Positions 18,195-37,634 of a stretch of 49,503 bases of DNA are shown here, piece by piece. The first letter of the stretch is position 1. Every line of letters starts with the position of its first letter. Both the position numbers and the translations under genes were made by a program. The notes below the pieces were generated by a model, which worked only from the letters and a program-made list of their open reading frames with translations, was not told the DNA's origin and did not search any database. The stretch comes from a virus: the IMG/VR virus record IMGVR_UViG_3300025086_000045, positions 1 to 49,503 of that record; one strand, 5' to 3'.

Positions 18195-18210
18195 TTTTTT
18201 GTATATTATA
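18195..18210 (+). promoter_or_regulatory. Late promoter box before the lysis cassette
   Basis: TTTTTTGTATATTATA matches the recurring phage box and lies 30 bases before the first lysis gene at 18241. Confidence 0.6.
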
Positions 18211-20532: not shown

Positions 20533-20891
20533 TGGCTATTGTTAAACAGGTTCAAAAAAAAGTAATAATGTCTAAAAGAGACATTATTAAATTTCAACTA
20601 ATTACTCACTGTTATTTGAATAAAATAACGGTGAGTGATTCAGATCTTGAATGTTTAACATTACTTAGTATTTTAGGACCTATAGAATTAACTCACTTTT
20701 GTTATGATGCTGCTGAAGAACATAAGATATTTAAATCGCAGCAAACTGTAAGAAATTGTATTAATAAGTGTATTAAGTCTAAACTTATTATCAAAGATTC
20801 TAAAAATAAAAAAGTAATTGAGATTAATAAAAATCTTAATGTAGAAACTTTGGGAACTGTAATGTTAGATTATAAATTTCTAGCTAAATGA
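20532..20891 (+). CDS. Putative winged-helix DNA-binding protein
   Basis: A 119-residue basic protein. The order of helices (SDLECLTLLSILG, ELTHFCYDAAEEHKIF, SQQTVRNCINKCIKSKLI) followed by a possible wing (KDSKNKKVIEINKNL) looks like a winged helix-turn-helix. It stands directly before the IHF-like gene with ATGA overlap, a place where I recall a similar small protein in other crAss-like genomes. The DNA-binding role is an inference. Confidence 0.65.
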   Translation: MAIVKQVQKKVIMSKRDIIKFQLITHCYLNKITVSDSDLECLTLLSILGPIELTHFCYDAAEEHKIFKSQQTVRNCINKCIKSKLIIKDSKNKKVIEINKNLNVETLGTVMLDYKFLAK

Positions 20892-21271
20892 AACCTAAAA
20901 AAGCTAATGTTTTATATCAAGAAATAGCTGATAGGAATGATGTATCAAAACTTTTAGTAGAGAGTGTAATAGAATTTTATTATAAAAATGTAAGAACATT
21001 ATTAAGTGAGCTTCATCATCCAAGAATAAATATAACAGGTCTGGGTGTTTTTGCAGCTAAAAAAAGATCTATAGATAAAGGTATACCAAGATTTGAAAAA
21101 TATTTAGAAAATCATGATACATCTACATATTCAGCATATTATAATAAAAAACTTTTAGAAGATAAGTTAGAAGGTTTATATTCAATAAAAGACCAAATAG
21201 AAGCTGAACAAAAAAGAAAAGAAGAATTTTTAAAAAATAAACGTGGACTTAAAAAAAATTTGGAAGAATAG
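20888..21271 (+). CDS. IHF/HU-like DNA-bending protein
   Basis: A 127-residue protein. The first 80 residues follow the HU/IHF plan: an N-terminal helix pair (YQEIADRNDVSKLLVESVIE, then FYYKNVRTLLSE) and the start of the beta arm (PRINITGLGVFAAKKRS). The beta arm itself is short and degenerate, and a Lys/Glu-rich C-terminal helix of about 40 residues (IEAEQKRKEEFLKNKRGLKK) replaces the usual end. IHF-like proteins are a hallmark of crAss-like phages and could assist packaging or genome condensation. It overlaps the next gene by 29 bases. Confidence 0.75.
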   Translation: MKPKKANVLYQEIADRNDVSKLLVESVIEFYYKNVRTLLSELHHPRINITGLGVFAAKKRSIDKGIPRFEKYLENHDTSTYSAYYNKKLLEDKLEGLYSIKDQIEAEQKRKEEFLKNKRGLKKNLEE

Positions 21272-27973: not shown

Positions 27974-29275
27974 ATGGCAGAAGAAACAAATGAGGAAACT
28001 CAAGTACAAGACTCTACAACGGTAGAGGAAGTAGATGTAAATATTGATGAGATTTTTGGTCAACCAGGCGCTGAAAGCATTATGTTACCAGCAGATGAGG
28101 TTGAACCAGAACCAGAAGAAAAAAAGTCAAATCTCTTCTCTAAACCAGAAGAACTTGACACAACGTTCATTGACAAGACTGAGACTACAACTGAAGAAGT
28201 AGAAGCAAATGCAGAAGAACCTATAACACCTGAAGCAACAAAAGAATTAGTTGATGAGGCGTTGGCAGAGTTAGATGATGCAATTACGGAAGAAGAAGTT
28301 GGAGAATCTAAAAAAGGTAGACGCAAAACTGATAAAAGCGGTTTACTTGATTTAGCTAATAAAATGATTGAGGAAGGTACTCTTTTTGGCTTTGATGATG
28401 AAAAACCTCTTGAAGATTATACTACTAAAGATTTTAGAGAATTGTTTGAAGCTAACTTTCAAGAAAGAGAAGCTAAGATTAGAAAAGATACTCCTAAAGA
28501 ATTTTTTAACTCACTTCCATCTGAACTTCAAGTAGCTGCAAAATATGTTGCAGATGGTGGTACTGATATGAAAGGTTTATTTAGAACTTTATCTAATGTA
28601 GAAGAAGTTATACAGTTAAATCCAGAAAATGTAAACCATCAAGCAGAAATTGCAAGGCAATATCTTACGGCTACTAACTTTGGTACGGCTGAAGAAATAG
28701 AAGCTGAAATACAAGATTGGGCTGATATTGAAAGGTTAGAAAAAAAGGCAAAGCAGTTTAAACCAAAGCTAGATAAAATGCAAGAGAAAATGGTTTCTCA
28801 AAAACTAGCTGAACAAGAACAAAAGAAAGTTCAACAAGAACAAGCTGCCCAAGACTATATGGATAATGTATATAACACTCTTTCAACAGGTTCACTAGGA
28901 GATATCAAGTTAGATAGAAAATTGCAAAATCAATTATACTCTGGATTAGTACAACCTAATTATCCTTCTATATCAGGAAAGCCTACAAATTTATTAGGAC
29001 ATCTTCTTGAAAAATATCAGTTTGTAGAACCAAGACATGATTTAATCGCAGAAGCATTATGGTTGCTTTCAGATCCAACGGGATATAAAGAAAAGGTTAA
29101 AAGTCTTGGCAGTCAAGCGGCTGTTGCAGATACAGTAAGAAAATTAAAAACTGCACAGTCTAAAAAAATGAGTTCTTCATCTCAAGCACAAGCCTCAGGT
29201 AATGCAAGGAGGAGTGGAACAACAAGAAGAAAACCAACAGTACAAAGAAAGAACAATATGTTCAAAAGATTTTAA
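27974..29275 (+). CDS. Capsid scaffold-like protein
   Basis: A 433-residue protein. The first 120 residues are acidic and disordered (Glu, Asp, Thr and Pro), the middle is helical with a coiled coil (LEKKAKQFKPKLDKMQEKMV, EQEQKKVQQEQAAQ), and the C-terminal 40 residues are strongly basic (RRSGTTRRKPTVQRKN). An acidic helical body with a basic end, encoded between portal and capsid, is the classic plan of an internal scaffold whose basic tail grips the capsid shell. No protease domain was seen. Confidence 0.75.
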   Translation: MAEETNEETQVQDSTTVEEVDVNIDEIFGQPGAESIMLPADEVEPEPEEKKSNLFSKPEELDTTFIDKTETTTEEVEANAEEPITPEATKELVDEALAELDDAITEEEVGESKKGRRKTDKSGLLDLANKMIEEGTLFGFDDEKPLEDYTTKDFRELFEANFQEREAKIRKDTPKEFFNSLPSELQVAAKYVADGGTDMKGLFRTLSNVEEVIQLNPENVNHQAEIARQYLTATNFGTAEEIEAEIQDWADIERLEKKAKQFKPKLDKMQEKMVSQKLAEQEQKKVQQEQAAQDYMDNVYNTLSTGSLGDIKLDRKLQNQLYSGLVQPNYPSISGKPTNLLGHLLEKYQFVEPRHDLIAEALWLLSDPTGYKEKVKSLGSQAAVADTVRKLKTAQSKKMSSSSQAQASGNARRSGTTRRKPTVQRKNNMFKRF

Positions 29276-29307: not shown

Positions 29308-30924
29308 ATGGCAACTCCAGTTTTAAACAATGGTATCTTTCTACGGGATACAGCGTACAGCGCAAGTTCACACGTAGATTCTTACCACTTGGTTAACATG
29401 TTGAAAGATGCAGAACCAATGGACTTAGGTCCAGTGGACTTATGGGCAATGTCTCAGAAAGTTGAAATGCCTCTTTATCAAATGTCTAGCTTTGGTGGAA
29501 AGAACGTAATTGAAGTAGATAATGCTCGTGGAGAGTATAAGTGGCAAACTCCTGTATCTAGGGATCTTCCTTACATTGTTGAGGATTTAGCACCTGGTGA
29601 TGATACACGAGGAGCAGATGGCACAACTTTCCAAATTAAAATGAGCTGCAGAGAATTTGGACATGGTGATATCATCACATATGACAAATACAATGGAGCT
29701 GAGCTTTATATCACAGATGAGGATATTCTTCCAATGGGTGATGGATTTATCTACACTGTGCAGATGGTTAACAATAACAACTCTGCAACTTTTGATTCTC
29801 GTTTCTTGGCTAATGGAACTAAGTTCTTTAGAAAAGGTTCTGCAAGAGGTGAGTATGGTGAGAGATTCTCTGACATTTCTACAGGAACTGGTTTCCGTGA
29901 ATTCTACAACTATGTAGGTGGAGCAGAAGCACACGTTCACTATTCAGTTTCTTCTAGAGCTGATCTTATGATCAAAGGTGGAATGAATGCTGATGGTACT
30001 GTACCTGTAACTGAGATCTGGAGATCTTCAGGAGATAACATGGATCCTTCTGTAGCTTCATTAGATGATATGGTTAAGAAAATGGGTAAAGATGGTGTTA
30101 AGAGAGCTTTTGATAATGGCGATCTTTCTAGATCTTTCCTTACTCAAATGGAAGCTGCTCACTTGACAAAAGTAGCAAATGACATTGAGTCTTACCTAAT
30201 GTGGGGACAAGGTGGTAGAGTTAGACAAGACGGACCAGATGATTTGAGATTATCTGTAGGTCTTTGGCAACAACTTGATAACTCTTTCAAAAGAGTATAT
30301 AACAAGAACAACTTTAACCTTGACCTATTCCGTTCTGAGATCTATAACTTCTTTAACGGTAAAGTTGAATTCCAAGGTCCAGATCCACAAAGACAATTGA
30401 TTGTCCAAACTGGTATGGGTGGAATGAGAATGGTAAACGAAGCTATCAAGAGAGAAGCTGTTGCTTCAGGTCTTGTAATTCAAGCTGCTGATATCGGTGC
30501 TATCACTGGTCAAGGTATGGACTTGAACTTTGGATTTGCTTATACTTCTTATGTAATTCCTTTCCTTGCTAATGTTAAGTTTGTACTTAACCCAGCATTT
30601 GATAATGTAAATACTAATGATATTGAGAACCCAATTATTGATGGATTCCCATTATCTTCTTATTCATTCATTATCTTTGACATCACTGATAACACTAATG
30701 ACAATATCTTCTTACTGAAGTTGTCTTGGGATAATCAACTTAAGTGGTGGTATCAAAATGGTACAATGGACTACATGGGACGTAGCCAAGGATTCCAGTC
30801 TTCTGGTCAATTCAACGGATACAGAGTTATGATGTCACAAACAATGCCTGCAATCTGGGTAAAAGACCCAACTAAGGTATTGAAGATTGTTATGAGAAAC
30901 CCAGTTACTGGAGGATCGTTCTAA
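29308..30924 (+). CDS. Major capsid protein (HK97 fold, crAss-like)
   Basis: A 538-residue protein. The sequence (NNGIFLRDTAYSASSHVDSY, PVDLWAMSQKVEMPLYQMSS) and the C-terminal strands (GYRVMMSQTMPAIWVKDP, LKIVMRNPVTGGSF) follow the crAss-like major capsid pattern. Codon use is more GC-rich and even than that of the neighbours, as expected for the most abundant protein. It follows the scaffold gene by 32 bases and is closed by a strong terminator. Confidence 0.9.
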   Translation: MATPVLNNGIFLRDTAYSASSHVDSYHLVNMLKDAEPMDLGPVDLWAMSQKVEMPLYQMSSFGGKNVIEVDNARGEYKWQTPVSRDLPYIVEDLAPGDDTRGADGTTFQIKMSCREFGHGDIITYDKYNGAELYITDEDILPMGDGFIYTVQMVNNNNSATFDSRFLANGTKFFRKGSARGEYGERFSDISTGTGFREFYNYVGGAEAHVHYSVSSRADLMIKGGMNADGTVPVTEIWRSSGDNMDPSVASLDDMVKKMGKDGVKRAFDNGDLSRSFLTQMEAAHLTKVANDIESYLMWGQGGRVRQDGPDDLRLSVGLWQQLDNSFKRVYNKNNFNLDLFRSEIYNFFNGKVEFQGPDPQRQLIVQTGMGGMRMVNEAIKREAVASGLVIQAADIGAITGQGMDLNFGFAYTSYVIPFLANVKFVLNPAFDNVNTNDIENPIIDGFPLSSYSFIIFDITDNTNDNIFLLKLSWDNQLKWWYQNGTMDYMGRSQGFQSSGQFNGYRVMMSQTMPAIWVKDPTKVLKIVMRNPVTGGSF

Positions 30925-30944
30925 TCTAAACAATAAATTCTTAA

Positions 30945-30978
30945 AAGGGGGAGGGCTATTCCTCTCCCTTTTTTTTTA
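30945..30978 (+). terminator. Rho-independent terminator after the capsid gene
   Basis: AAGGGGGAGG pairs with CCTCTCCCTT (ten pairs, one G-U, six-base loop) and is followed by a run of Ts. It ends the scaffold/capsid unit. Confidence 0.9.
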
Positions 30979-31016
30979 ACCAACAAAATAAATAACCAAT
31001 AACAAAAACAAAACCA

Positions 31017-32036
31017 ATGGCAAAAGAAACATTTACAATGGTGGAAACACCATCAGCAAGTAGAGAATCAAAAATCTCTATTAAACCATATTTTGATGCA
31101 CGAGCAGAAAACATGGGATTAGAAAATTATGGATTAAGTTTATTTGATGGAATTAAACATCAAGAGCAGTTAGCATGTCTAGAGATTAATGGAATTAATA
31201 GATATCTAACAGGTCTTAATGAGTTTGCTCCAGAAATTAAAAAACTTCCTAAAGAAAAAAGAGAAGCTAAGGTAAAACAGATAAGAGAATCTGTTGCAGA
31301 CTTAGAAGCAGAATTAGCTTCCAATATACTTGACCCAGAAGATAAAGACTTTTGGAATAAAGTAAAGTTATTAAAACCAGACAATAATGAATTCTGGAAT
31401 AAGATTGATATAAGTGTAGGAAATGATAGTAAATTTCTTAACATGAACGATCCTTATGATAGAATTAAATTACATGCTATTGAGGCAGGAGGGTTTTCTT
31501 TAATTGCAAAAAGTTATGAAGATGCAAAGGCAAAACCAAAACCACCTAAGTTTTATTTAGATAAAGACGCAGAGACTGTATCTAGTAGAACTGAATATAA
31601 GAAGCTTAGAAATAAAGCGCTATCTGAACTACAGAAGTTATTTGATAAGAATAGTACTAAACTGTTCTATGTAGCAAAAGTTGTAGATGCAAGTAGCACA
31701 CAGTACAAAAAGTCTACTCCAGGAGATATTCTATATGAAAATATGGATACACATATCCATGGAGAAGGAGCTGAAAGCAATATGGAAAGAGCCGTGAATC
31801 AATTTTTAGATGCTACTAATTGTGACATGGAAACATTAAAAATTAGAAGTATTGTTAAAGATTCCAGTTTTTTTAAGTATATTATTACTAAGAGCGATGG
31901 ACATATTTATCATAACAAGAAGAATGTCATGTTAGGAAGAAATGTGTCTGATGTAGTTGAATTCTTAAAGAATCCTCTTAATGAAGATATCTTAGATGAT
32001 TTAACTAAAGAATGTGAAAAGTATTGGAAAAGTTAA
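31017..32036 (+). CDS. Conserved head protein of unknown role
   Basis: A 339-residue protein, rich in Lys and Glu, with a long helix (KKLPKEKREAKVKQIRESVA) and a mixed C-terminal half (KLFYVAKVVDASSTQYKKS, SFFKYIITKSDGHIYHNKKN). It sits directly after the capsid gene. I have the impression of similar proteins at this place in other crAss-like genomes, where they are virion-associated, but no function is established. No promoter box is evident in front of it, so it depends on read-through of the capsid terminator or a diverged promoter. Confidence 0.7.
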   Translation: MAKETFTMVETPSASRESKISIKPYFDARAENMGLENYGLSLFDGIKHQEQLACLEINGINRYLTGLNEFAPEIKKLPKEKREAKVKQIRESVADLEAELASNILDPEDKDFWNKVKLLKPDNNEFWNKIDISVGNDSKFLNMNDPYDRIKLHAIEAGGFSLIAKSYEDAKAKPKPPKFYLDKDAETVSSRTEYKKLRNKALSELQKLFDKNSTKLFYVAKVVDASSTQYKKSTPGDILYENMDTHIHGEGAESNMERAVNQFLDATNCDMETLKIRSIVKDSSFFKYIITKSDGHIYHNKKNVMLGRNVSDVVEFLKNPLNEDILDDLTKECEKYWKS

Positions 32037-32109: not shown

Positions 32110-32352
32110 ATGAAAAAATGCATGAAATGTGATGGAAGTGAGAAAGTAAAAATGAAGGCAGGTGGTTCACTAGATCCAATCCCTGCAGGTAATAAAGGAT
32201 TACCTAAATTATCTAAAACTGTAAGAAATAAAATGGGTTACATGGGAATGGGTGGATCTGCATTAGAGTCATCTATGAATGGAATGATGTACAAGCATGG
32301 AGGTTCTTGCGGTAAAAGAATGAGATATAACAGAACAAATAAATCTTTTTAA
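32110..32352 (+). CDS. Small basic protein, start of the basic-protein chain
   Basis: An 80-residue basic protein rich in Gly, Met, Lys and Ser (CMKCDGSEKVKMKAGGS, KMGYMGMGGSALESSMNGMM). A CxxC pair opens it and a further Cys lies near the end (GGSCGKRMRYNR). The Gly/Met-rich middle is probably flexible. It starts the run of tiny basic genes 2 bases before the next one. A spacer of 73 bases in front contains TAAATATATTATA, a diverged promoter box, and a 12-codon basic frame at about 32061. Virion cargo or DNA-binding is inferred from charge and context. Confidence 0.65.
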   Translation: MKKCMKCDGSEKVKMKAGGSLDPIPAGNKGLPKLSKTVRNKMGYMGMGGSALESSMNGMMYKHGGSCGKRMRYNRTNKSF

Positions 32353-32354
32353 TT

Positions 32355-32573
32355 ATGGCAATGAAACAAAAAGGCGGAGGCTGTGGATGTAGTAAAACTA
32401 TGCCCAAGTACTCTAATAATCCTAGATCAATGCAAGGTAGAGTTCTTCGCGATGGAGGAATGGTAAATGCTTATATGTCAGGAGGAACTATGAAAGGTGA
32501 TAGAGTTACTAAAGGTTCTATGTACAGAAGAGGAGCTGAAGTAAAAATGATGAAACAAGGTGGTTATAAATGA
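32355..32573 (+). CDS. Small basic Gly/Met-rich protein
   Basis: A 72-residue basic protein that shares style with the one before: a Gly/Cys cluster (KQKGGGCGCSK) and Gly-Gly-Met phrases (RDGGMVNAYMSGGTMKGD). The two may be diverged copies. The end overlaps the next gene as ATGA. No family is recognised. Confidence 0.65.
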   Translation: MAMKQKGGGCGCSKTMPKYSNNPRSMQGRVLRDGGMVNAYMSGGTMKGDRVTKGSMYRRGAEVKMMKQGGYK

Positions 32574-32797
32574 TTAAACTTACTAACATGACAAAGAAAG
32601 ACATGAGAGAGTTTGAAGTACAATCAGCAATGAGTACTTTACAAAGAGCTCAAGATATCCAAAAAGATGCTAAGTTAATGAAAGAAGTAAGAAGCATGGC
32701 TAGTAAAGAAGCTCAGAAGTTTCAAGCACTAGCTGGTGGTGGATCAGTAGCACCTAAGAAAACTTTATCTAGAAAGAAAACTTTAAAACGTAAATAA
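32570..32797 (+). CDS. Small basic helical protein
   Basis: A 75-residue protein; helical first 55 residues (KKDMREFEVQSAMSTLQRAQ) then a Gly-rich hinge (ALAGGGSVAP) and a basic tail (KKTLSRKKTLKRK). A helical body with a histone-like tail suits DNA binding, which is inference. Start fixed by the ATGA overlap; one base separates it from the next gene. Confidence 0.65.
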   Translation: MIKLTNMTKKDMREFEVQSAMSTLQRAQDIQKDAKLMKEVRSMASKEAQKFQALAGGGSVAPKKTLSRKKTLKRK

Positions 32798-32798
32798 G

Positions 32799-33161
32799 AT
32801 GGCAAATAAGAATGAAGATCCCCCTAGCTGGCTAAGACAATTGCTAGGTCGAATGGGTCCAGATGCAGATGCAGAACCAATGGGAAACAAATACAAAAAA
32901 ATTGGTGCTGCTGGTTTACTTACTACAGCTCTTGGTATGGGTATTCAATCAAGAAAAAAGAAAAAGGACGCTTTTCAAAAAGCAAATGATATACTAGATT
33001 ATGACAGAAAACGTGATAAAGAGGACTTTAAACAATATAGAAAAGACCAAAGAGCTTTACCAAAAGATAAGCGTTATCAAAAAGACGGTGGTACTGTTTT
33101 TTCAAGAAAATCTAGAATAACTGATTACAATGGCAAGAAAAAAGGCAAAGGCAAAAAGTAA
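32799..33161 (+). CDS. Small basic protein
   Basis: A 120-residue basic protein. An N-terminal amphipathic part (PPSWLRQLLGRMG), a short hydrophobic stretch (GAAGLLTTALGMG) and a charged C-terminal half (KRDKEDFKQYRKDQRALPKD) ending in KGKGKK. The hydrophobic stretch is too short for a sure membrane span. It overlaps the following gene by 32 bases in another frame. Confidence 0.65.
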   Translation: MANKNEDPPSWLRQLLGRMGPDADAEPMGNKYKKIGAAGLLTTALGMGIQSRKKKKDAFQKANDILDYDRKRDKEDFKQYRKDQRALPKDKRYQKDGGTVFSRKSRITDYNGKKKGKGKK

Positions 33162-33306
33162 AACTAAAAAGGACTCATGCTATTATGCAGCTAAAAGAGC
33201 TCATAAAGTATTTCCTTCTGCTTATGCTAGTGGTATGATTGCTAAGTGTAGAAAGAAGAAAGCTGGTAAAAGTAAGACTAAGGCCAAAAAGAAGAAGAAA
33301 AAATAA
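33130..33306 (+). CDS. Small basic protein with a SCYYxxKxxYKVFPSAYASG motif
   Basis: A 58-residue protein starting at 33130 inside the end of the gene before. Its core (KKDSCYYAAKRAHKVFPSAY then ASGMIAKCRK) is a motif I recognise from small basic proteins of many tailed phages and some larger viruses, flanked here by Lys-rich ends. Two Cys at the ends of the core could bind a metal or form a disulfide. Function unknown in general; virion-associated DNA binding is likely. TAATG joins it to the next gene. Confidence 0.75.
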   Translation: MARKKAKAKSKTKKDSCYYAAKRAHKVFPSAYASGMIAKCRKKKAGKSKTKAKKKKKK

Positions 33307-33578
33307 TGGCAATTAGAAAGACAAAGAAAGGTGCAGCTCTTAAACGCTGGTTCAAAGAAAAGTGGACTGATGAAAAGGGTAATGCTTGCGGATCTTCTAA
33401 GAATAAAAAAACTAAGAAGTGTAGACCTAGTAAAAGAGTTTCTAAAAAGACTCCTAGAACCTGGGGTTCTATGTCTAAGTCACAAAAGAGAAAAGCTGTT
33501 GCAGAAAAGAAAAGAGTTGGTATGGGTAGAAGAACCAGTGCTATTAGAAAAAGGAAAACAACTAAAAAGAAGAAATAA
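33306..33578 (+). CDS. Small basic protein, WFKEKW family
   Basis: A 90-residue protein, with the phrase LKRWFKEKWTDEKGNACG followed by KKCRPSKRVSKKTPRTWGSM. This arrangement (WFKEKW, two Cys, then RPSKRVSxKTPxTW) is a widespread phage family with no proven role (DUF5872 by memory, to be checked). The C-terminus is extremely basic (IRKRKTTKKKK). TAATG at both ends makes it part of the coupled chain. Confidence 0.75.
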   Translation: MAIRKTKKGAALKRWFKEKWTDEKGNACGSSKNKKTKKCRPSKRVSKKTPRTWGSMSKSQKRKAVAEKKRVGMGRRTSAIRKRKTTKKKK

Positions 33579-33757
33579 TGGGAAAGATGCCAAAAACTTT
33601 ATATAAAAAAGGTGGAGCTGCAAAAAAGTTCAAACCTCATATGATGTATGATCCTAAAACAGGAAAAGGTTATAAAGCAAAAGTTATGGCCGATCATACC
33701 CGTATGAAAAAGAAAGGTTATACACATACTAAACCAAAAGCTAAAAAGAAGAAATAA
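33578..33757 (+). CDS. Small basic protein (59 aa)
   Basis: Starts at the ATG at 33578, which shares TAATG with the gene before, and stops at 33755-33757, again TAATG with the gene after. The protein is Lys-rich throughout (MGKMPKTLYKKGGAAKKFK, HMMYDPKTGKGYKAKVMADH, TKPKAKKKK). The segment YDPKTGKGYKAKVMADHTRM looks like a small folded unit. No family name is known to me. Confidence 0.7.
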   Translation: MGKMPKTLYKKGGAAKKFKPHMMYDPKTGKGYKAKVMADHTRMKKKGYTHTKPKAKKKK

Positions 33758-33969
33758 TGGAAAAAATAGATGCAAATAAAGTACTAGGTACTTTTAGAAA
33801 AAACTATGAAGATAGAAAAAAGTCTATGATGAAAAGTTATATGGAAGGGGGACTTGCTGAAACTGCTACAGAAGGATGTGCAGCTGGGGAAGATTGTACA
33901 CCAGGACGTAGGAGAAAAAGAAAGAGAAGAAATAAGAGACGTATTAGAAGATCAAGAGCAAGATACTAA
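33757..33969 (+). CDS. Small protein with an Arg-rich, protamine-like tail
   Basis: A 70-residue protein. A helical first part (NKVLGTFRKNYEDRKKSMMK), a short acidic part with two Cys (EGCAAGEDCTPG) and a C-terminal tail that is almost only Arg and Lys (GRRRKRKRRNKRRIRRSRAR). The tail resembles protamines and viral core proteins and should bind DNA without sequence specificity. TAATG at both ends. Confidence 0.75.
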   Translation: MEKIDANKVLGTFRKNYEDRKKSMMKSYMEGGLAETATEGCAAGEDCTPGRRRKRKRRNKRRIRRSRARY

Positions 33970-34241
33970 TGGCAACTAAAAAAAGTAGTAAGAAAAAAGG
34001 AGCAATGAAAGGCTGTACAATCAAGAATGGTTGTAAGTCTAAGAAAGGTGGTCTTACTGCTAAGGGTCGTAAAAGTATCAACCGTAAAACTGGATCTAAT
34101 CTTAAAGCACCTCAACCAGGTGGTGGGGCTAGAAAAAGAAGTTACTGTGCAAGATCTAAAGGTCAGATGAAAAAGTTTCCTAAAGCTGCTAAAGATCCAA
34201 ACAGCCGTTTGAGAAAAGCAAGGAGAAGATGGAAATGCTGA
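33969..34241 (+). CDS. Small basic protein, GLTAKGR family
   Basis: A 90-residue basic protein with a core seen in many phages: GLTAKGRKSINRKTGSNLKA, PQPGGGARKRSYCARSKGQ and KDPNSRLRKARRRWKC (DUF6321 by memory, to be checked). The function is unknown; a virion DNA-binding role fits the charge and the site. It is the last gene before an internal promoter box. Confidence 0.75.
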   Translation: MATKKSSKKKGAMKGCTIKNGCKSKKGGLTAKGRKSINRKTGSNLKAPQPGGGARKRSYCARSKGQMKKFPKAAKDPNSRLRKARRRWKC

Positions 34242-34243
34242 TG

Positions 34244-34259
34244 ATTTTTTTGTATATTA
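34244..34259 (+). promoter_or_regulatory. Late promoter box inside the basic-protein chain
   Basis: ATTTTTTTGTATATTA matches the recurring box; it begins 2 bases after the stop at 34241 and lies 5 bases before the small frame at 34264. Confidence 0.6.
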
Positions 34260-34263
34260 CTAT

Positions 34264-34329
34264 ATGAGTAAAACTTTTAAAGAACCCGAAGAAACAGATG
34301 ATCAAATCTTTATCTACTGGGATTATTAA
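34264..34329 (+). CDS. Acidic micropeptide (21 aa)
   Basis: ATG at 34264, TAA at 34327-34329: MSKTFKEPEETDDQIFIYWD plus Tyr. It is acidic, unlike its neighbours, and fits between a promoter box and the next ATG with only 2 bases to spare. It may be real or a leader peptide; the length allows chance. Confidence 0.35.
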   Translation: MSKTFKEPEETDDQIFIYWDY

Positions 34330-34331
34330 AA

Positions 34332-34508
34332 ATGGCAACAAAAAAGAAAGATAAAAAGTGGATGCAAAAAGTTACCAAGTCAATCAAAAGACGTGGTACT
34401 AAAGGTAAATGTACACCTATTACAAAGAAGACTTGTACAGGTAAAGCTAAAACACTTGCTAAAACTTTTAAGAAAATTGCCGCTAAAAGAAAAAAGAAAA
34501 AGAAATGA
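34332..34508 (+). CDS. Small Lys-rich protein (58 aa)
   Basis: Starts at the ATG at 34332 (MATKKKDKKWMQKVTKSIKR) and ends with TGA at 34506-34508, overlapping the next ATG. The centre (GTKGKCTPITKKTCTGKAKT) has two Cys, and the end is a long Lys/Arg run (KKIAAKRKKKKK). Same style as the rest of the chain; DNA binding by charge is inferred. Confidence 0.7.
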   Translation: MATKKKDKKWMQKVTKSIKRRGTKGKCTPITKKTCTGKAKTLAKTFKKIAAKRKKKKK

Positions 34509-34849
34509 AAAGTAAGAAAACAAACATGAATCCTGCAGAAGCTCTTGGTAAAATGCAAAGAGCTAAGATGGGAAAATCAGTAGGTTCATATCTTGAAGGT
34601 GGTAGAATAATGTATAATGATGGAGATCCCAAGAAAAAGGGTAAATTAAAAGAACAAAATCTAGATGAAGTAGATGCTAATACAAGTAATATTTTTCAAA
34701 AAGGTTTGTTTAGAAAAGCAAGGGCAAGAAACTATGCTAAAAATAATCCAGGAACTGCTTCAAGTGTCAGAAACTATGGAAAACGTAGAGTAGTTACTAC
34801 ATATAATGATGACGGTTTTAAAGGAAAAGCAATCCGTAAAAATGTTTAG
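34505..34849 (+). CDS. Small basic protein, end of the basic-protein chain
   Basis: A 114-residue basic protein (MNPAEALGKMQRAKMGKSVG, SYLEGGRIMYNDGDPKKKGK, then RKARARNYAKNNPGTASSV). The phrase SYLEGG recalls SYMEGG in the protein at 33757-33969 and the Gly-Gly phrases of the first genes, so some members may share a common peptide, perhaps a targeting or protease-recognition tag. Start fixed by ATGA. Confidence 0.65.
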   Translation: MKSKKTNMNPAEALGKMQRAKMGKSVGSYLEGGRIMYNDGDPKKKGKLKEQNLDEVDANTSNIFQKGLFRKARARNYAKNNPGTASSVRNYGKRRVVTTYNDDGFKGKAIRKNV

Positions 34850-34852
34850 ATA

Positions 34853-35551
34853 ATGTTAAATAGTGCAATAGTCATAAAATTAAAACAAAGGATCAACAAG
34901 CTTGATAGCCAAGACTATGATAATATAGAATGTTGGCAAGCTGTTGAAGCTTTTAATAAAGCACAAGTAGAATGGTGCAGAAGACAGTTGCATGGACTTA
35001 ACATTGTTAAGGAGGGTGATGAGCAATCTACTAGAAGAAAAGATGATCTTCAAGTATTGCTTTCTGATAATGAACTTTCATTAACTGATAAGAAAGATTA
35101 TTTCCGTGGAGCTATTCCTGGAAACTATCTGCAGTTTAAAAGGGTAGATGTATTTGCTTGTAAAGATTGCTGTAAAGATAGAAGAATGACTGTATATCTT
35201 TCAGAAGAAGGTAACTTAAATCAATTATTAAGAGATAAATCTAAGAAACCTTCATTTGAATGGGCAGAAACGTTTGTTACATTAATTGGTGGTCAAGTTC
35301 ATATTTACACTAATAATGACTTTGAAATATCAGAAGCAAATTTAATTTATTACAGACAACCAAGAAAAATTCAAATTCAAGGTTGTGTAGATCCTTATAC
35401 TAACGAAGAAACTTTAGTAGAAGTAGAATCTGAATTTAAAGATGATATAATTGAAGTAATTATTGATGAAGCTGTTAGTGTATTAGCTGGTGATATAGAA
35501 TCTCCAGTACAATACCCAAGAGGTACTCAAACTGCTGAAAGAAATAATTAA
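34853..35551 (+). CDS. Connector/ring-like structural protein
   Basis: A 232-residue protein. The N-terminal helical part (IVIKLKQRINKLDSQDYDNI, ECWQAVEAFNKAQVEWCRRQ) and the later strands (TFVTLIGGQVHIYTNNDFEI, ANLIYYRQPRKIQIQGCVDP) with the helical end (DIIEVIIDEAVSVLAGDIE) follow the pattern of crAss-like head-to-tail connector or ring proteins that sit below the portal. A CKDCCKD cluster may bind metal. It begins 3 bases after the basic chain. Confidence 0.6.
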   Translation: MLNSAIVIKLKQRINKLDSQDYDNIECWQAVEAFNKAQVEWCRRQLHGLNIVKEGDEQSTRRKDDLQVLLSDNELSLTDKKDYFRGAIPGNYLQFKRVDVFACKDCCKDRRMTVYLSEEGNLNQLLRDKSKKPSFEWAETFVTLIGGQVHIYTNNDFEISEANLIYYRQPRKIQIQGCVDPYTNEETLVEVESEFKDDIIEVIIDEAVSVLAGDIESPVQYPRGTQTAERNN

Positions 35552-37023: not shown

Positions 37024-37042
37024 TATAATTAATTACTCATTA

Positions 37043-37080
37043 AAGGGAGAGTGAGATTTATTTTCTCCTCTCCCTTTTTT
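37043..37080 (+). terminator. Rho-independent terminator
   Basis: GGGAGAG (37045-37051) and CTCTCCC (37068-37074) pair around a 16-base loop, followed by TTTTTTTTA. Confidence 0.9.
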
Positions 37081-37091
37081 TATTCATCAAT

Positions 37092-37634
37092 ATGGCAAAT
37101 CATGTATTAAGTTTAGAAGTACCCCCTGTAGGAAATGCCTGTGTCATGAAAATTTTTGATACAAGTGTGTATTCTCCACAGGTTGCTATTTTTGAACCAA
37201 AACTTCAAATTACAGTTCCTGGGTATACCTATGCTGCAGAAGTTCATTTTCAACCTGAGTCATCTTGTAATCTAACAGGATGTGATTTAGGATTACAAAC
37301 AGAACACTGTGGTCAATCATACGTGAATTTACCAGATGGAATATATGTAATAAAATATGTAGTAGACCCAAGTCATGTGGTTTATGTAGAATATAATCAT
37401 TTAAGAATGACTCAAGCTATGGATCTATATCAAAAGATTTTATGTGACATAGATGTGGCAGATTGCGATCCACCTAAAGCCGTAAAAGATAAACTAAGGC
37501 ATCTTAGATTGATTAGAATGTATTTAGATGCAGCAAAAGCTAAAGTAGAAACATGTCATGATCAACAAGAGGGAATGACACTTTACAACTATGCTTTAAA
37601 GCTTCTTAAAAAATTAGATTGTAGACATTGTTAA
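37092..37634 (+). CDS. Conserved structural/connector protein
   Basis: A 180-residue protein with a beta-rich first half (HVLSLEVPPVGNACVMKIFD, SYVNLPDGIYVIKYVVDPSH) and a helical second half (RMTQAMDLYQKILCDIDVA, YNYALKLLKKLDCRHC). Eight or more Cys suggest disulfides or metal. Its place between the abundant structural protein and the large Cys-rich protein implies a virion part, perhaps a ring of the head-tail joint. Confidence 0.65.
   Translation: MANHVLSLEVPPVGNACVMKIFDTSVYSPQVAIFEPKLQITVPGYTYAAEVHFQPESSCNLTGCDLGLQTEHCGQSYVNLPDGIYVIKYVVDPSHVVYVEYNHLRMTQAMDLYQKILCDIDVADCDPPKAVKDKLRHLRLIRMYLDAAKAKVETCHDQQEGMTLYNYALKLLKKLDCRHC

Follow-up and report, generated by a model that had tools for sequence, protein, structure and literature searches.

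A cassette of small basic genes at a conserved head–tail junction in aquatic crAss-like phages encodes candidate internal head proteins

Results

A chain of small basic genes

We analyzed positions 1 to 49,503 of the IMG/VR virus record IMGVR_UViG_3300025086_000045 (a stretch of 49,503 nucleotides, nt, hereafter the window), in which twelve consecutive open reading frames (ORFs) of 21–120 codons are packed into positions 32110–34849 of the + strand. The ORF listing and the sequence confirm this chain, which had been described in the initial annotation of the window. Eleven of the twelve products are basic (isoelectric point, pI, 10.1–11.8; net charge +12 to +33; Lys plus Arg up to 45%), in agreement with the earlier description of almost all of them as rich in Lys and Arg; the single acidic product (pI 4.1) is encoded by the 21-codon frame at 34264. 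The tight joining of the frames noted earlier applies to most junctions (TAATG at 33306, 33578, 33757 and 33969; ATGA at 32570 and 34505; gaps of 1–3 nt elsewhere), but s4 and s5 overlap by 32 nt and a gap of 22 nt precedes 34264. All eleven basic frames were independently recovered by a codon-usage ORF caller trained on large genes.

The frames are listed below with lengths in amino acids (aa); L numbers denote related contigs or their loci, counts refer to the 46 loci compared below, and dN/dS is the ratio of non-synonymous to synonymous substitution rates.

32110..32352, + strand: s1, 80 aa, pI 10.1, three [MY]xxGG motifs; relative in L012
32355..32573, + strand: s2, 72 aa, pI 10.3, GG motifs; relative in L015
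32570..32797, + strand: s3, 75 aa, pI 10.5, GG motif and basic tail; 26/46 loci; dN/dS 0.33–0.60
32799..33161, + strand: s4, 120 aa, pI 10.1; found in the window and the near-identical contig L007 only
33130..33306, + strand: s5, 58 aa, two-cysteine basic domain SCYYxxK...FPSAYASG, the N-terminal half of Pfam DUF5872; matches PHROG 727/3477/38880
33306..33578, + strand: s6, 90 aa, WFKEKW domain, the C-terminal half of DUF5872 (PF19197, 1.7e-14, profile positions 48–112)
33578..33757, + strand: s7, 59 aa, leader KMPKTLYKKGGA followed by a basic body; dN/dS 0.23–0.46
33757..33969, + strand: s8, 70 aa, common KVLxxFRK leader, MEGG and a protamine-like Arg tail; relatives in the near-identical contig L007 only
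33969..34241, + strand: s9, 90 aa, GLTAKGR/DUF6321 domain (PF19846, 2.7e-16), helical model; 37/46 loci
34264..34329, + strand: s10, 21-aa acidic peptide with the conserved end DQIFIYWDY; kept in L008/L009 and L018, with a similar end, LIFIYWE, in L012
34332..34508, + strand: s11, 58 aa, two-cysteine basic domain starting W[IM]QK; 27/46 loci; dN/dS 0.12–0.15
34505..34849, + strand: s12, 114 aa, pI 10.3, YLEGG motif; 43% match in L012

The SCYY/FPSAYASG, WFKEKW and GLTAKGR families, singled out in the initial annotation, are borne out by Pfam and PHROG matches and by relatives. A DNA-level comparison with a phage collection yielded the s9 region and otherwise short matches only. For s5 on its own, TBLASTN was negative at 1e-3, and its family was reached via PHROGs instead.

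The cassette site

The TerL, portal and major capsid protein (MCP) of the window match head-and-packaging PHROGs. The chain has a homolog of crAss001 gp33 on its left and a tail-ring gene on its right:

29308..30924, + strand: MCP (PHROG 11589, 1.1e-32; crAss001 gp32 structure 7qof, 3.5e-4)
31017..32036, + strand: g0, left border, crAss001 gp33 homolog (BLASTP 3e-6; hidden Markov model, HMM, 2.1e-6), pI 6.2, not basic
34853..35551, + strand: right border, crAss tail-barrel ring protein (connector; csAssE-Sib ring 6e-15; PHROG 29507)

The right-border protein also has HMM matches to phi4:1 gp062, annotated by tandem mass spectrometry, and to crAss001 gp34; the roles of ring proteins in crAss001 are taken from PMC10172136. 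The gp33 protein of crAss001 carries the annotation of a dsDNA-binding domain. Judged by its crAss-type MCP, portal, TerL and ring protein, all of them expected of Crassvirales-like genomes, the window is a crAss-like phage, and the initial annotation was right both on this identity and on the placement of the chain between head and connector genes.

The distance separating the gp33-like gene from the ring gene is 5 nt in crAss001, 4 nt in csAssE-Sib and 1 nt in Cellulophaga phage phi4:1; in Leptolyngbya phage Lbo-JY46 the two overlap. This direct adjacency, which is the arrangement of the four compared phages and not a formal criterion, is replaced in the window by a 2.8-kb insert. As the junction is empty in these four crAss-like phages, the chain is a lineage-specific cassette at a conserved junction. 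The s3, s5, s6, s9 and s11 families were not found in the examined stretches of the four genomes.

Conservation of the interval in related contigs

Eighty MCP relatives yielded 46 loci (including the window) with both borders; these loci are related, so that counts over them are not independent, and 40 are left once identical strings are collapsed. ORFs inside and outside the interval between the gp33-like and tail-ring genes were called with the same caller. The interval is 0.28–4.0 kb long and holds 324 ORFs, 322 of which have a pI above 9.5. Outside it, such a pI is seen in 14.5% of small ORFs and in 5.4% of ORFs of any size. The ORFs of the interval form 41 families with at least two members, together with 54 singletons, and the first and last cassette genes are variable.

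The recurring skeleton comprises s9 (37 loci), s11 (27), a further family, F2 (27), s3 (26) and s6 (22). Conserved order among relatives was a check proposed in the initial annotation, and the order of the skeleton is near-invariant: s9 precedes F2 in 21 cases against none, s3 precedes s9 in 18 against none, and s6 precedes s9 in 17 against none. The families s6 and F5 are mutually exclusive (P 0.0018). Relative to the closest relatives, dN/dS is 0.03–0.31 for s5, s6, s9 and s11 (0.03–0.23 for s5, with 0.59 against L012) and 0.23–0.65 for s1, s2, s3 and s7, with values climbing to about 0.65 in variable genes and between the most divergent pairs. The skeleton (the DUF5872 halves, s3, DUF6321, F2 and s11) keeps its order and is under purifying selection, while the gene content around it turns over fast.

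In L053 (10956–12497) and L064 (10964–12364) the second cassette gene encodes a basic protein of 466–513 aa rich in Pro, Lys, Ser and Thr, with repeated TRxGVxKGNTPG units and an MxKKGG end.

DUF5872 and DUF6321 domains in other phages

Both Pfam assignments exceed the gathering cut-offs: s6 scores 54.8 bits against DUF5872 (cut-off 27.5) and s9 scores 60.4 bits against DUF6321 (cut-off 28.5). Many relatives have a 112-aa fusion of s5 and s6, which scores 50.7 bits over profile positions 14–111. Since the DUF5872 profile spans this fusion, the window splits DUF5872 mid-family into two overlapping genes.

Relatives of s9 were found in 366 phage records, mainly of cyanophages and pelagiphages. 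They lie between the MCP and tail tube genes in P-SCSP1a and directly follow the capsid gene in HTVC103P. They directly precede TerL in L100 and the TerS-TerL-portal genes in L164, and T4-like cyanophages have them between the TerS and TerL genes; a relative of s6 lies between the scaffold and MCP genes in P-SCSP2. In T4-like cyanophages a single protein of 517–530 aa (GC119) combines a DUF5872-like N-terminal part (read by eye and below the Pfam cut-off), the s5 domain, an element like that of family F15 (CWxGYxKKG...NC) and DUF6321. The GC119-type protein of S-SCSM1, gp029, is labeled "virion protein" in its record. By a hand count 47 coding sequences of that record carry a virion label, and 45 S-SCSM1 proteins were found by mass spectrometry (PMC9602691); the closeness of these numbers means that the label of gp029 very probably reflects detection. 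A DUF5872 protein has also been annotated in the algal virus CpV-BQ1 (PMC12085832). In the open literature we found no earlier paper tying DUF5872 or DUF6321 to phage virions.

Two side observations concern the distribution of these families. In L112 (3305–6261 and 8603–9948) and L119, which are other crAss-like contigs, the s5 and s9 genes do not follow the MCP gene and are located upstream of homologs of window genes 21536 and 22369, in the pre-terminase block. Another small basic family, CIGKVKGVDVC...HHTKKHISMMVNAMKNG..FGASHKIAQKKVGK, occurs near s9 or s5 in unrelated phages (L088 at 4604, L114 at 5776, L115 at 5428) and has no Pfam match.

Leaders, GG motifs and cysteines

The motif [MY]xxGG occurs 292 times in the interval proteins, a tenfold excess over within-protein shuffles (27.9+/-5.6), with the consensus K-[MY]-K-x-GG-[SAT]-[TV], and is absent from 186 of the 324 proteins. 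In all 27 N-terminally extended proteins (s9, s11, F15, s5, s3) a GG lies at most 16 aa before the domain, as against 30% of background windows. A leader (A/T)xKVLxFFRx...GG is common to the s5 extensions in L012, L015, L018 and L045 and to short proteins in L046 and L070, and s8 of the window carries a divergent form of it; the bodies behind the leader otherwise differ. Judging by these patterns, a modular leader/GG system, absent from the initial annotation, is present in the cassette. The leader with its GG border resembles a targeting tag or a processing site; alternatively, the border may be a flexible linker. Adenovirus processing sites are of the type (M/I/L)XGG. Processing of this type was set aside, since in the cassette the enriched M/Y sits three residues before the first G and the consensus therefore differs. 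Even numbers of cysteines in 126 of the 127 cysteine-bearing members of six families suggest disulfides or metal binding.

Structure models

The AlphaFold2 model of s9 is helical (predicted local distance difference test, pLDDT, 79.9; predicted template modeling score, pTM, 0.44). Among viral predicted structures it matches mainly DUF6321 phage proteins, including the "Virion protein" of S-SCSM1. The s5–s6 model has low confidence (pLDDT 71, pTM 0.34), and no solved homolog of s9, s6 or the S-SCSM1 fusion was found.

Other features of the window

A promoter-like sequence was seen inside the chain:

34249..34259, + strand: T[TA]GTATATTA, in the 22-nt gap before 34264, consensus match only

Similar sites precede the genes at 27974, 35629, 40707 and 44282 by 18–47 nt, and the window has 15 matches with one mismatch, compared with 6.4 expected. 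The sites at 18198, 27937, 34249, 35579, 40681 and 44261 are mostly 12–47 nt upstream of gene starts, and the motif is a possible late promoter of the phage. GC-rich stretches resembling inverted repeats and followed by T runs (30930–31000 and 37040–37080) are possible terminators ahead of g0 and of the gene at 37092. The product of 20888–21271 weakly matches the bacterial HU/IHF DNA-binding family (PF00216, E 0.0027, under the cut-off) and is possibly a second DNA-architecture protein.

Discussion

On balance, this lineage-specific cassette probably encodes internal head (core) proteins that associate with the packaged DNA. Directly on the side of this reading stand the genes themselves with their charge, selection, syntenic site and order, the domains shared with and fused in a cyanophage protein that bears a virion label, the leader and GG modules, and the even cysteine numbers. 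Many copies of the small basic proteins would be made late in infection and would be incorporated into the prohead or drawn to it, in part via the short N-terminal leaders and [MY]xxGG motifs; they would then stay with the packaged DNA, where they would neutralize some of its charge and give the genome shape or protection, and some of the fast-turning members would perhaps be delivered into the cell along with it. The phage chromatin set proposed in the initial annotation can be retained only in part: homologous domains do have head and packaging genes as neighbors and are united in one protein with a virion label, but there is no fixed kit, since much of the set varies and the set is missing in gut crAss phages as well as in other crAss-like isolates.

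For the phage of the window we infer virion location, DNA binding, prohead targeting and delivery, and several points weigh against internal head proteins. One copy of each chain protein sums to a charge of just +217, so that hundreds of copies would be needed to matter: in a 100-kb genome, 60 copies of each would balance 6.5% of the phosphates, and about 300 copies of each, the figure for T4 (PMC9026906), would by the same arithmetic balance about a third. Packaged genomes of dsDNA phages are usually taken as neutralized by cations and polyamines rather than proteins, and according to PMC3281028, which states this, evidence for a sizeable contribution of basic proteins to the neutralization is lacking. 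Gut crAss phages lack the cassette, which is consequently not essential for packaging. No prohead-type or maturation protease (S78, S77, C39, C48/Ulp1-like) was found in six long relatives, the S77 and C48 searches having no positive control, and a PDB fold search with the s9 model gave no solved fold. Among cyanophage records, that of syn9 leaves the homolog gp114 unmarked as structural, though gp14 and gp15 are marked, and that of S-SM1 lists its homolog as hypothetical. Finally, the gene turnover, with its 54 singletons, fits injected anti-host cargo equally well.

Such cargo is the main rival explanation: the proteins would serve host takeover or counter-defence and be packaged mainly for delivery like T4 IPI, their charge being needed for loading beside the DNA or for binding host nucleic acid. 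Besides the turnover (also seen in the 41 families and the variable first and last genes across the 46 loci), the mutual exclusion of s6 and F5, the large protein cargo packed by crAss001 (PMC10172136) and the T4 internal proteins, which are basic, DNA-binding and ejected (PMC9026906), are in line with it. We nevertheless regard it as rather unlikely: s9 and s5–s6, the most conserved members, are found in phages whose hosts differ widely, an unusual distribution for counter-defence, and nothing enzymatic or toxin-like is among the Pfam and PHROG matches. The cassette might plausibly combine both roles, with a conserved skeleton associated with DNA and a changing set of cargo proteins. Capsid-lining or scaffold-associated assembly factors, whose GG motifs would bind a repeated site of the inner capsid or core lattice and whose basic bodies would bridge the shell to DNA or aid head assembly, could explain the multi-copy motif with its consensus and the site between capsid and ring genes, and have a parallel in the IPIII-type effects on T4 head shape (PMC9026906); the lack of the motif in more than half of the interval proteins (186/324) and the heads built by close crAss relatives without the cassette make this improbable.

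It is still less probable that these are non-virion late factors (RNA-binding proteins or modulators of transcription or translation) encoded in the late structural block by happenstance. Charge alone cannot separate DNA from RNA binding, and of the cyanophage records examined that of S-SCSM1 alone has a label linked to mass spectrometry, but this very label of gp029 and the repeated placement of homologs next to head and packaging genes of unrelated phages argue against such factors. That the frames are A-rich artefacts rather than genes is hardly credible: the AT-rich, A-skewed strand does favor Lys codons, but dN/dS is well under one for s3, s5, s6, s7, s9 and s11, frames and order are conserved, Pfam matches exist (s4, s8 and s12 alone being outside such support), and where an artefact would predict frame-breaking changes in relatives, the opposite is seen.

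The internal head proteins proposed here resemble several known systems. Basic internal proteins are already known in T4 (PMC9026906), chloroviruses (PMC3281028) and ascoviruses (PMC6163548). T4 IPI, IPII and IPIII are likewise small, basic, encoded in a head module and provided with short N-terminal leaders; they bind DNA in low salt and are present in about 300 copies each (PMC9026906). None of the PHROG matches of the chain, however, is to a family annotated as internal proteins, and the cassette has many more genes and a GG motif in place of the known T4 targeting sequence, with no gp21-type protease detected in the six long relatives (S77 search without a positive control). In chlorovirus PBCV-1 the basic virion proteins with the A278L/A282L basic adaptor domain were proposed to neutralize a large dsDNA genome (PMC3281028); the cassette proteins have no Pfam match to that domain and no kinase fusion. 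Ascovirus P64, which was shown to condense DNA (PMC6163548), also joins two-cysteine modules to basic stretches, but the cassette proteins have no match to PF08793 (vs2C adaptor) and are Lys-rich instead of containing Arg/Ser repeats. Storage of proteins in a crAss-like virion is exemplified by crAss001 gp45, gp46 and RNA polymerase subunits (PMC10172136), which are large (60–277 kDa) and encoded elsewhere than at the cassette site. The nearest relatives by domain are DUF5872 itself, split in the window into two overlapping genes, and the GC119 proteins (S-SCSM1 gp029 and S-P4 GC0119), which carry the s9-type domain with s5- and F15-like domains in one chain instead of separate small genes. 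As far as the open literature searched shows, four features are new: a swappable cassette of many genes in a clade of aquatic crAss-like phages, the equivalence of an operon and a fused cyanophage virion protein, the division of DUF5872 between two genes, and the modules formed by leader and GG motif.

More tentatively, the cassette could be one form of a modular phage nucleoprotein system, in which swappable two-cysteine basic domains, assembled by way of a common leader and a [MY]xxGG junction code, are packaged with DNA. The domains would be encoded either separately in an operon or together in a single fusion, at least one domain family being shared with large algal viruses.

In summary, a large aquatic crAss-like clade appears to give about 2–4 kb at a fixed genomic site over to basic mini-proteins alone. 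Hundreds of records of cyanophages and pelagiphages contain their domains, and one family is annotated in an algal virus. The cassette accounts for genes often missed by annotation and hints at a capsid-targeting or processing motif that may be new. DUF5872 and DUF6321 gain a concrete, testable role, and phage "chromatin" becomes a testable idea.

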